A stretch of DNA of 64,000 bases from Physcia stellaris (Eukaryota > Ascomycota > Lecanoromycetes > Caliciales > Physciaceae). The stretch lies in the NCBI GenBank assembly GCA_018902385.1, contig JABSSW010000029.1, forward strand, positions 372,001 to 436,000, read 5' to 3'. The translations under genes and the position numbers were made by a program. How positions within the stretch are numbered: the first letter of the stretch is position 1; each line of letters opens with the position of its first letter. Positions 54,095 through 58,963 of the stretch are shown piece by piece. The notes beneath the pieces are model-generated. The model saw only the letters and a program-made list of their open reading frames with translations. It was not told where the DNA came from and made no database searches.

Positions 54095-54869
54095 ATGACT
54101 GCAACCGACCAAACGCTCATTAACGGCGAAGCGCTGCCGTTCAACCTGACCGATGTCGATCGTGCCACTCTCGCCCAGACGGATGAAGAATTTGAGCCTC
54201 ATAGCTGGGAGGAGTTGAAGACCATTGTCCGTAAGCAACCCGGAGTTTTCTAGGCCCTACAGCGGCATGGGGAAGGCGGCCGCCTTGATTGGGAAATGTA
54301 TCAGCTTTGCTGACCTTGTGCACTCGACTCTAGAAGCCAACGATCTCGCTGCATTCAAAAGATATCCATCCCAGCTACGCCGCTATCTGGCCTGGTCTAA
54401 CGAGATCAAGGCCAAGTACGGCAGCATCCCAAATTTTGTATGCGAAGAACGCCTCCACTGGACTCCTTCACGGATCGATCCCTCTGCTCAGGCAAGCGGT
54501 CTTGAACCTCATACGCCAATTCCCTTTGCCCATACCGCCGACTACAGAGTCCTACGCAATGATTGGCCTTATGCTACACCTCCCGACATCGCACATCTGG
54601 TAATCTGGCTCAAGACACCTTTTGCGGTCGATTCGAAGGGTTATTTGTTGCCTGAAGGGCAGGCGCAAATACAACGCTTTGTGGATAATGCATTTGTGAA
54701 GCCGCTCAAGGCTATCTATGGGGAGGAACAAGATCGAACGCTGTGGTTCAAGAATTGGTCGGCATTGCAGAGTGTGGGGGCTCTAGAACATTTCCACTGT
54801 TTTATTAGGGGCGCCGGGGAACAGCTGCTGACCGAGTGGACGCTGGAAGGGAAGAGAAGTCTGATGTGA
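54095..54869 (+). CDS. N-acetylglucosamine-induced protein 1-like (DUF3605)
   Basis: Exons 54095-54230 and 54334-54869 (donor GTAAGC, branch GCTGAC, acceptor TCTAG), 223 residues. Family segments are clear: SQLRRYLAWSNEIKAKYGSI, VCEERLHW, DYRVLRNDWPYATPPDIAHL, VIWLKTPF, RTLWFKNWSALQSVGALEHF. This is the DUF3605 family, named after a gene induced by N-acetylglucosamine in Candida; its biochemistry is unknown. The soluble protein lacks a signal peptide. It sits 640 bp upstream of, and in the same orientation as, a sugar-nucleotide aminotransferase gene, which may or may not be meaningful. Confidence 0.85.
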
Positions 54870-55511: not shown

Positions 55512-56617
55512 ATGATTCCCTTCAATAAGCCCCCTCTGACTGGTACTGAGTTACGGTATGTCAAGGCTGCAACGGAAACCCCAAATCTCTGCGGCAATGG
55601 GGAATTCACTCGCCGCTGCCAGCAATGGATTGAAAACCGGTTGGGGAGTCGCAGCAAAGTCTTTCTCACCACTTCCTGTACCTCAGCGCTTGAGCTCGCT
55701 GCACTCCTCGCTAACATCAAGCCTGGCGACGAAGTCATTCTACCGAGCTTCACCTTCGTCTCCTCTGTCAATGCCTTCGCATTATACGGCGCTACACCCG
55801 TCATGGTTGACGTGATACCCGGAACCATGAACATGGATCATCAGCTCATCGAAGCTGCGATCACGACTAAGACTCGCTTCATCGTACCCGTCCATTACGC
55901 TGGCGTGGCCTGCGATATGGATGCCATCATGACAATTGCGGAGAAATACCATCTCATGGTCATCGAAGACGCGGCACCCTCCTTGACAGCCACATATTCG
56001 TCCCGTGCCCTTGGTTCTATCGGACACATAGGCTGCTTTAGCTTTCACGAGACCAAAAACTTCACCTCTGGAGGTCAGGGCGGCGCCATCGCCATTAATG
56101 ACCCCTCTCTTTTCGACAGAGCTGAGATTCTTTACGATAATGGAACAAATCGTCGTCAATTTTTTCGGGGTGAGATTGAGGAATATGGCTGGGTAGACGT
56201 CGGGTCCAACTTTGTCATGTCAGAGATCCAAGCTGCATACCTTTGGGGCCAGCTCGAAATCGCTGACCGCATCACCACCCGCCGACAACAGATCTGGGCA
56301 CGCTACTTTGCAAAGCTACATCCGCTTGCGAAGAAGGGAATGATCAGGCTCATGGAGCATGAGCCAGAGTGCGCCCACAATGCACATATGTTTTTATCAA
56401 GACGAGGGATAAACGATTGAGAGGGGAATTCGCGAGGTTCATGAAAGAGTCTGGGATTGTGTGTTCACCTCATTATGTGCCTTTACATCACCGGCCCATC
56501 CTTCAAAGGTTGGGAAGGTTTTCGGGCGAGGACAAGTATACGACCGTGGAAAGCGATTGTCTGATAAGACTGCCCCTGTACTATGAATTGAGCGAAAAAA
56601 TCAAGACTACATTATAG
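55512..56617 (+). pseudogene. wecE: WecE/RffA-type sugar-nucleotide 4-aminotransferase, frameshifted
   Basis: Intronless and strikingly like the enterobacterial dTDP-4-dehydro-6-deoxyglucose (TDP-fucosamine) transaminase over its full length (about 370 codons). It is a PLP enzyme of the DegT/DnrJ/EryC1 family: GDEVILPSFTFVSSVNAF, PVHYAGVACDMDAIM, IEDAAP (Asp153), SFHETKNFTSGGQGG with the PLP Lys182, and NFVMSEIQAAYLWGQL. Two oddities: Pro156 replaces the conserved Gln of EDAAQ, and after NAHMF a T5 run (56391-56395) lacks one base, so the frame ends early at IND. The next frame continues correctly with KTRDKRL, HYVPLHHRPI, GEDKYTTVES and LRLPLYYEL to 56617. Either a real -1 frameshift or a sequencing error. 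The high bacterial similarity and lack of introns suggest horizontal transfer. Confidence 0.85.
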
Positions 56618-56955
56618 AGCAGATCTGGCAGTTTTTCAAAGATCAAGGTGCCTATGAGGGACATGTGGATGGGAACGAAGACAATGTCATCACCGAGAAT
56701 GGGATGCACGCGACGAATGGAGCCAATAGATTCTGAAAAGATGCAATCGATCGTGAATGAAATCAACTTCGTGCCTTGAACTTTTAGCTCGTCAGTTTCT
56801 TGAGGCTTGAAAGTCTGGGTTTGGGCCCTTTCGAAGACTGGAGTCTGCGCTAGCACGTTCTCGAGATTGAGGGAAGAGTTGGATGACTCCCAAACAATCT
56901 GTGATCGTCTGTAGTAAAAGGTATTGCACGCCAACAATGGTACCCCAAAGTTTCC

Positions 56956-57447
56956 TTACCGTCCCTCGAAACCCCAAACCTGCTCTACAACTTTGATAAC
57001 TTCAGGCTCCACTAGCAAATCTTCCTCCTCAAGGGCTTTGTGCGTGTCCTTCAGATAGACTTGCTTATGGTGGTTTTCAAGGTCATCTTGCGACAGCCAT
57101 CTAAGTCGTCAGAAATACCGCATCCAGATCATCTGTCAGGTGTTGCTACGGCTTTGGGGCAGAGGAGCAAGCTTACTCTTCAATTAACACCATATCAGGC
57201 CTCTCTGCATTCGCGCTCGTTTGACGGAGTACCAGGTACTTGACACACCCATTCTCGTTTTTATGGACGTTCTTGGCGAGCGAGGTCAGGATTTCTTCGA
57301 CCTACAGGACCGTGCCGCTGGATAAGTTTATGCGCTTTTTGTTGAGGCAGAGAGCTTGTAAAGTGTGGGGAGAAAATGGGGGCTCACACGCGGAAGTTTT
57401 CCCGGGCGTGGGGAGAGCGTGCAGACCATGGTAATCGTCTTTGCCAT
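56956..57447 (-). CDS. ABM-type (antibiotic biosynthesis monooxygenase-like) small protein
   Basis: Exons 57447-57388, 57301-57177, 57100-56956, 109 residues, all phases matching (donors GTGAGC and GTAAGC; branch TTCTGAC before the last exon). It reads MAKTITMVCTLSPRPGKLPR, then VEEILTSLAKNVHKNENGCV, KYLVLRQT, PDMVLIEEWLSQDDLENHHK and VVEQVWGFEGR. This is the dimeric ferredoxin-like ABM fold: N-terminal strand, helix containing the GCxxY/K turn, strand, then (E)EWxSxxxLExH. ABM proteins include cofactor-free monooxygenases and heme-degrading enzymes, but most fungal ones are uncharacterised. A downstream minus-strand frame (to 56581) could be an alternative C-terminal exon if the TAA at 56958 lies in an intron. 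Located between the aminotransferase and the dehydratase-like gene. Confidence 0.7.
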
Positions 57448-57804
57448 GTTGAAAGATGACTTTGATATTGCGGACTTAGCTGGCTTGAATGGGAGAATGG
57501 GTACGGGCAAATACCACGCGGTACTTTTTGATGATGAAGAAGCAAGATTCAGTTGCCCTCTCACTATCAAGCTAGATAATATCGTCGGCAGGTGAGTACT
57601 TGTGCTGCACTCCTCGTCGCCGCTATATCATCCGTTCCGGTGGTGATCACTAGCTTATGGCGTACTCGTACCTGCAGGTTATCACTAGACTGCCATCCCC
57701 ATCGAAACACTGGTGCATATTCGTGAGAAGCTGCAGGTCACAATCGTTGCGATGATTTGCAGTATGCAGTATCCTAATGGTCGCAGGGCGCGGGGCGCTT
57801 GCAG
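57448..57804. other. Short intergenic stretch
   Basis: Between the ABM gene and the 3' end of the dehydratase-like gene; nothing recognised. Confidence 0.4.
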
Positions 57805-58963
57805 TTAAGACTTCCTCGCGGCGTCCTTCCACCACGTATCTCCAAAGCGGGCATACCACTCCACCGTCCTCCTCAACCCCTCCTCCCACGGCACTCGGGG
57901 CTCCCATCCAAGCGCTTTCAACTTCCTGCAGTCCAAGCCGCTATTCGAATCCGCGTACGGTCGCCCAGGCACAGTCTCGATCCACGAGTCGAGACTTGAG
58001 CTATCGCTCGAGGAGTCGCTGCCCCCAAGGTTGACGTAATTGAGCAGCGTGGCGCCCAGGTCGCGGTTGCTGATCTGGGTGCTCGAGCCGAGGTTGTAGA
58101 TTTTTCCGGCCACGCCGCGGTGGAGGAGGACGTTGAAGGCGTTGGCGGCGTCGCCGGCGTACAGGTAGCGCTTGCGCTGCGTGCCGCCCCCGTGCATGGT
58201 CAGTTTCTCCCTGTGCTGGAGGAGCATGATGAACTTGGGGATGATCTCTGCGCCATCCCAACCCCATTAGCGGAGCGGAGGAGGAGGCTGGAAGAGTACC
58301 TACTGTCGGGGTATTGGTTCGGCCCGTAGATGTTGTTGGTGCGCACGATGAGGGTCTCCAGCGCGTTGCAGTGTCCGAACGCCGTCACCAGCATCTCCGC
58401 CGCTGCCTTGCCGGCTCCGTACGGGTTCATGGGGACCAGGGCTTCGTCCTCGTCGTGGCCTTCGCTGCCGCACTTGGTGGCACCGTACACCTCGTATGAA
58501 GACATCTGCACGAATTTGCGGACATTGCACGCTTTGGCGCATTCGAGCATCACCTGGGTGCCGACGATGTTGGTTGCTGCGAACGAAGCCGGGGATTTGA
58601 GACTGGCGTCCACGTTGGACTGCGCGGCGAGATGGATGATGGTGTCGATGCTGTGCAGCTGCAGGCAGCGGGTGATGTCGTCCGGGGACATGATGTCGCC
58701 TTCGTAGAAGGTGAAGTTGGGCTGGCTGTTCAGCATGCGGGTGTTGTTCAGCGAGGCGCCGTAGTCGAGCTTGTCGAAGGAGACAAGGTTGTAGCAGTCT
58801 GAGTAGGTGATGGCCAGGGCGCGGATGATCCAGGATCCTCTGCGAGCAGAACTGTCAGTTTTCCTTTCCTGTCGTGTCGTATGGTACCGAGTTCGAGATG
58901 GTGATCGTGGGGAGCGTGGAGAGAAAGGGGGATATACATGAATCCATTGCCGCCCGTCACCAT
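57805..58963 (-). CDS. dTDP-glucose 4,6-dehydratase-like NAD(P) sugar dehydratase/epimerase
   Basis: Exons 58963-58938, 58839-58304, 58247-57805, 334 residues; splices restore VTGGNGFIGSW and YPDKIIPKF. An extended-SDR protein of the RmlB group: NAD-binding GGNGFIG, FDKLDYGAS, FYEGDI, IHLAAQSNVDASLKSP, YGAGK (Tyr-x3-Lys), VRTNNIYGPNQYPDK, KRYLYAGDAANAF, LGSSTQISN and GRPYADSN. If active it would make dTDP-4-keto-6-deoxyglucose, the substrate of the neighbouring WecE-type transaminase. The catalytic TDE of RmlB reads SYE here, so the acid Asp is Tyr. The ATG used is the first residue of the core fold; a frame upstream (DDAVPSIPEIKNI) lacks an ATG, and a plausible start at 59043 is one base out of frame. 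High G+C. Confidence 0.75.

Follow-up and report, generated by a model that had tools for sequence, protein, structure and literature searches.

In a 64,000-base stretch of the Physcia stellaris genome (GenBank assembly GCA_018902385.1, 44 Mb in 147 contigs), covering bases 372001-436000 of the 583,761-base contig JABSSW010000029.1 (C29) and called the window below, we found a sugar 4-aminotransferase gene of the WecE/RffA type that is very probably of bacterial origin and whose reading frame is broken twice. It lies next to a diverged gene of the uridine diphosphate (UDP)-glucose 4,6-dehydratase type that is fungal in character. The explanation we prefer, with somewhat more belief than doubt, is that a captured bacterial WecE joined the fungal metabolism of UDP-4-keto-6-deoxyglucose, where it would have made UDP-4-amino-4,6-dideoxygalactose, and that this step has probably been lost here. 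The fungal amino sugar thus survives as a lead from an earlier sequence-only reading of this DNA, but the imported two-step bacterial module which that reading had proposed does not. Adjacency, copy number and paralogues were assessed within this one fungal genome, and homologues were compared among bacterial, viral and PDB sequences.

The aminotransferase is a member of the WecE/RffA family. Its first frame matches the family from residue 1 and remains conserved for about 293 amino acids before running into a few residues foreign to the family and a stop. This piece alone passes both TIGR02379 (ECA_wecE; 451.6 bits against a cut-off of 434.85, E 1.7e-135) and NF008687 (466 bits, cut-off 375). 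The PDB search placed the WecE/RffA structures 4PIW/4ZAH and 6BLG far above perosamine synthases and other entries, with E-values of 2.2e-121 or better for 4PIW and 6BLG. Measured against 80 bacterial WecE rows, 59 of the 64 near-invariant columns are kept (those altered are F98M, E189Q, K210N, K224E and S233N), as is the catalytic Lys182 that binds pyridoxal phosphate (PLP). Identity is at most 63% to bacterial members and 61% to 6BLG. No second copy was found in the search of the genome, where only a remote fusion on contig C61 matched; the genome gave three DegT-family matches, namely the window gene, the C61 fusion and one on C1 that was read by eye as a sulfhydrylase. The intronless WecE/RffA-like gene described from sequence was correctly assigned to its family, and no intron is visible, but its frame is not continuous.

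The frame changes twice within the WecE domain, near 56391 and near 56595, and both breaks fall in the last third of the gene, in a T run (after which the first frame closes at a stop at 56420) and in an A run. As family residues are contiguous across both breaks, with no room for an intervening sequence, introns are ruled out at either position, and two programmed frameshifts seem improbable. Two control genes were chosen by family: in acetyl-CoA carboxylase both of the downstream frame changes looked at are GT-AG introns (the 5' junctions were partly traced), and glutamate synthase has an open frame of 1843 amino acids. These count more than 11 further control stretches (16,983 bases), which are open across all 39 of their runs of at least five bases; since nearly all of them were drawn from lists of long open frames, they are biased and prove little. 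Break counts from a codon-usage Viterbi model followed the penalty that was set (0 in one version; 79, 13 or 2 in another) and were put to no evidential use. Judging from the frame, the aminotransferase is probably inactive in this assembly, and we lean, without certainty, towards a young pseudogene; sequencing error in the two runs may be the cause of the breaks.

A scan of prokaryote genomes, relying on short exact peptide patterns, gave 260 loci, the best 80 of which were all bacterial and 49-59% identical to the aminotransferase, with one enterobacterium (Phaseolibacter) included, judging by titles. Enterobacterial rffA genes in a plasmid collection, several of whose records are chromosome-sized, were up to 62.1% identical, and 35 of 197 genomes of Phaseolibacter's order matched at 1e-60 (best 63%), 25 of these matches becoming loci for the tree. 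A first tree of 84 rows placed the aminotransferase within WecE. The second tree (68 rows), to which the 25 loci were added and from which most of a distant clade was dropped, placed it in a mainly enterobacterial WecE clade with support of 95/94, the bootstrap being incompletely settled. This clade has 25 rows: the aminotransferase, 21 of the 25 loci of the order, 6BLG, Phaseolibacter (also as L129) and one Legionellaceae row. Because the gene groups with bacteria, as had been expected of its phylogeny, horizontal acquisition is the natural reading, and we consider a bacterial origin very probable from these comparisons. The GC content (52.4%) and the GC content at third codon positions (59.4%) fall within the values spanned by the 11 control stretches; the transfer, if there was one, was therefore not fresh. 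Contamination is ruled out by the length of the contig and by neighbours with introns and ordinary fungal families. Two other sources were tried and rejected: the viral contig collection held one locus at 30% identity, against a giant-virus origin, and matches of at least 60% in the phage collection came from 4 of 76 records, two of 2.7-3.7 kb and two titled Salmonella.

The neighbouring dehydratase is RmlB-like, as had been noted, but it is of fungal type. Its score against the RmlB family TIGR01181 (265.5 bits) is below the cut-off of 365.1, and its best PDB matches are RmlB 6BI4 and 6VLO, the latter being the structure of mimivirus R141 (PMC9614988). The genome contains a second dehydratase-type gene with the standard STDEVYG motif (C17:172164-173169), and the two genes have both introns in common: the first interrupts GFI at its Ile codon in phase 2, and the second interrupts YP(D/E)K at its Lys codon in phase 1. 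The window gene shares 47.0% identity with the C17 copy and 38.5% with R141, and identity to 12 prokaryotic rows is 29.9-35.1%. In the tree, the window gene, C17 and R141 split from those 12 prokaryotic RmlB rows with support of 100/100, a grouping in which the window gene's only companions are one fungal row (C17) and one viral row (R141), and the window gene pairs with C17 at 92/89 on a long branch (1.74). Plasmid records matching the dehydratase numbered 1686, all below 60% identity and at most 37.0% among the eight matches listed; no relatives were confirmed in the viral contig collection. Given the shared introns, the 47% identity and the 100/100 clade, the dehydratase is, on sequence comparison, an old duplicate of a fungal enzyme and not a bacterial import, contrary to the expectation that it would nest with bacteria. 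Homologous-looking residues extend upstream of its Met at 58963; a third frame break suspected there was withdrawn, as the C17 copy also seems to carry an upstream exon and an unseen exon explains the start equally well.

The active site of the duplicate has changed. 4,6-Dehydratases acting on deoxythymidine diphosphate (dTDP)- or UDP-glucose are described as having an [ST]DE motif in which Asp is the acid and Glu the base (PMC8987622). The window gene has SSYEVYG (SYE) in place of STDEVYG, with YxxxK kept, and the examined part of Table 1 in PMC8987622, a list of sugar-nucleotide dehydratase triads, contains neither an entry with Tyr as the middle residue nor the acid/base couple of SYE. Columns invariant in the 13 other rows are kept at 39 of 49 positions and altered at 10, among them T123S, D124Y, H84N, R289N and Y290S, while the same count against 12 rows gives 49 of 52 kept for the C17 copy. 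With a fungal paralogue that has the introns of C17 and has lost the catalytic Asp, the idea that both successive steps were imported from bacteria is wrong; of the horizontally acquired two-step pathway, the bacterial aminotransferase is the part that stands.

One residue position is tied to nucleotide preference (His214 in TvUGD, Gln206 in mimivirus; PMC9741107). As read from the alignment, with the three-residue construct offset set by hand, this position is His in the window dehydratase (eukaryotic, UDP) and Tyr in the prokaryotic rows; the C17 copy has Gln, as in mimivirus, and not the usual eukaryotic His. The nucleotide used is probably UDP rather than dTDP. The dTDP route suggested from sequence is unlikely on a further count, as an RmlA-like nucleotidyltransferase, looked for elsewhere in the genome, was not recognised by eye among the four NTP_transferase-family matches. 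These were named by eye as one GDP-mannose-pyrophosphorylase-like gene (two matches), one regulatory-type relative and one of eIF2B type. Five formyltransferase-family matches at three places exceeded the cut-off (best E 1.6e-7), and a partner N-formyltransferase may be present.

The rhamnose route appears complete elsewhere in the genome, with an ER-like reductase, named by eye, at C17:135098 (locus L110), 37 kb from the C17 dehydratase; UDP-4-keto-6-deoxyglucose would therefore be available to the aminotransferase. This keto sugar is made by fungi and then quickly reduced (PMC5698552). The C17 dehydratase (L095:4653-5976) also has a triose-phosphate-transporter-like neighbour, which at 26.2 bits is below the 30-bit cut-off.

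Taken together, a gene from an enterobacterial-type WecE donor would have entered fungal UDP-4-keto-6-deoxyglucose metabolism. Glutamate is the amino donor of WecE. With PLP and an amino-acid donor, the enzyme would aminate UDP-4-keto-6-deoxyglucose at C4 to give UDP-4-amino-4,6-dideoxygalactose, the keto sugar being supplied by the fungus's own UDP-glucose 4,6-dehydratase, of which the canonical copy is on C17. The adjacent diverged paralogue may have been a further source, recruited as partner and later altered. Through the broken last third, C4 amination would have been lost as the gene became a young pseudogene, unless the breaks are assembly errors. Several observations weigh against this explanation. 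The larger first tree did not settle the position of the aminotransferase inside WecE, its branch is long (1.19), and nesting inside the bacterial clade-mates was not distinguished from a position beside them (approximately unbiased test, p 0.48). The clade leaves out four of the 25 loci of Phaseolibacter's order and takes in one row from Legionellaceae. Both breaks are in mononucleotide runs of 5-6 bases, typical of sequencing errors, and family resemblance persists in the sequence beyond them; any loss would therefore be recent, if it is real at all. Family membership is also the sole ground for choosing Fuc4N over Qui4N.

The same breaks leave some room, though we doubt it, for an intact module, in which they are assembly errors and the dehydratase is active, either through Glu by itself or with Tyr serving as the acid; the pair would then convert UDP-glucose to UDP-4-amino-4,6-dideoxygalactose. 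The two genes adjoin, both breaks are in short runs, family conservation persists past them, and a GDP-mannose dehydratase in Table 1 of PMC8987622 uses Glu with no Asp acid. Set against this are the dehydratase's 10 altered invariant columns, the two family-chosen control genes with no break in the parts checked and, for all the bias in their selection, the open control stretches. A different chemistry for the paralogue, for example 4-epimerase-like or 5,6-dehydratase-like, with the pair making or having made a different sugar, seems unlikely. The couple missing from the examined triads would fit it, as would the further changes at family columns His84, Arg289 and Tyr290 and the precedent of TunA, in which an Asp-to-Cys change accompanies a different product (PMC8987622), but loss of function would give the same picture in a sequence comparison.

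We find it improbable that the two genes are chance neighbours, each drifting and with no common pathway. Neither looks fully intact, and the canonical dehydratase sits elsewhere, on C17. Among 49 bacterial loci whose flanks were complete, only 10 had a dehydratase-like open reading frame, and close linkage is therefore no rule in bacteria either. Against chance, the probability of such adjacency is about 6e-4, a post hoc hand estimate that assumes 13,000 genes, two dehydratase-type genes and a span of two genes on each side, and chance adjacency is unlikely. More tentatively, the locus may have carried a hybrid route to UDP-4-amino-4,6-dideoxygalactose in which a duplicated dehydratase was re-tooled to SYE and combined with the captured enterobacterial WecE, a route that this strain would have lately lost or be losing; we think this less likely than not.

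Known systems resemble parts of this locus. Compared with WecE/RffA of bacteria, the aminotransferase sits on a fungal contig in a broken frame, no RmlA or bacterial RmlB adjoins it, and UDP rather than dTDP is the likely nucleotide. The dehydratase belongs with the fungal UDP-glucose 4,6-dehydratases (UGD/RHM; Botrytis BcDH, which was outside the sequence comparison) by family, by the His at the UDP-linked position and by the introns common to the C17 copy, but differs in its SYE triad, its changed columns and its aminotransferase neighbour. In mimivirus, the UGD-type enzyme R141 supplies UDP-4-keto-6-deoxyglucose to the 4-aminotransferase L136 on the UDP-viosamine route (PMC9614988), the same UDP-based logic of dehydratase followed by 4-aminotransferase; L136, however, is remote from our aminotransferase (E 3e-6), and viosamine is a gluco amino sugar. 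TunA, a UDP-N-acetylglucosamine 5,6-dehydratase with a TCE triad, also lacks the acid Asp (PMC8987622, Table 1), but has Cys where the window gene has Tyr, and the likeness is by triad alone.

Bacterial DegT-family sugar aminotransferases have been captured by dinoflagellates and excavates, such as the WECE and MVIM-WECE proteins of Karenia brevis and excavates (PMC2064935), and the fungal case is therefore less surprising. The name WECE is broad there, grouped with desosamine, FdtB- and QdtB-type enzymes, and the likeness is by description only; the part of PMC2064935 consulted names no fungi among the organisms that have them. In P. stellaris itself, the C61:213117 region (L002:352-2724) contains a 790-residue frame with no visible intron in which a Gfo/Idh/MocA oxidoreductase is joined to an aminotransferase of the DegT family. 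Its halves match adjoining, separately named enzymes in Streptomyces sp. 769 (NZ_CP003988; 84% of the query, 36.3%). The same two domains are fused in the K. brevis MVIM-WECE, which is of bacterial origin (PMC2064935), and by analogy the C61 fusion is possibly a second captured sugar-amination unit.

The coordinates of the locus are collected in the table below. An ABM-domain protein between the two genes, reported from sequence, is present. The neighbour described as N-acetylglucosamine-induced in type corresponds to the DUF3605 protein upstream of the aminotransferase, a family to which we take the N-acetylglucosamine-induced GIG1 to belong; its tie to the aminotransferase/dehydratase pair is unproven. 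Downstream of the dehydratase, no more than 25 kb away and at or past the end of the window, lie a TauD dioxygenase, a cytochrome P450 and pieces resembling a sulfotransferase in two frames (L004:1533-5496 and L005:6039-7190). Neither a backbone enzyme nor a sugar transferase was recognised there, no search by name having been made. A 480-residue frame about 10 kb downstream (L004:6329-7768), guessed by eye to be a GT-B glycosyltransferase, had no Pfam match and was dropped.

Features of the aminotransferase/dehydratase locus, in window positions
Feature	Position	Strand	Basis
DUF3605 protein, upstream of the aminotransferase	54095..54869	+	PF12239, 155.7 bits
WecE/RffA-type sugar 4-aminotransferase, first frame	55512..56420	+	TIGR02379, NF008687 and PDB 4piw/6blg matches; conserved columns
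Conserved C-terminal part of aminotransferase, second frame	56387..56614	+	TIGR02379, 65.3 bits (profile 294-363 of 376)
First break, T run	56391..56395	+	Sequence, frame translations
Second break, A run	56595..56600	+	Sequence, frame translations
Aminotransferase tail, third frame, ends TGA	56601..56736	+	Three-frame translation; likeness to WecE end by eye, unscored
ABM-domain protein, between aminotransferase and dehydratase (approximate limits)	56960..57447	-	PF03992, 46.1 bits; exons joined by hand
Diverged UDP-glucose 4,6-dehydratase-type short-chain dehydrogenase/reductase, three exons	57805..58963	-	Splice model; PF16363, 197.4 bits; TIGR01181, 265.5 bits; SYE motif
Dehydratase intron 2, in QYPDKIIP, phase 1	58248..58303	-	Splice model; same place and phase in C17 paralogue
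Dehydratase intron 1, inside GNGFIGS motif, phase 2	58840..58937	-	Splice model; same place and phase in C17 paralogue

No report of a fungal WecE was found in the open-access literature, which supports its absence from print only weakly. The words aminotransferase and transaminase do not occur in a phylogenomic study of nucleotide-sugar enzymes in fungi (PMC8092308), and the part of PMC9309667 searched for WecE has nothing on fungi.

The sugar 4-amino-4,6-dideoxygalactose is otherwise known from bacterial surface glycans. If sugars of the 4-amino-4,6-dideoxy type are made by some fungi, the present picture of cell-wall and metabolite chemistry would be missing a sugar, and UDP-4-keto-6-deoxyglucose, whose build-up harms a fungus (PMC5698552), would gain a fate besides rhamnose. 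The SYE paralogue also offers a ready test of how far 4,6-dehydratases tolerate change at the acid residue.

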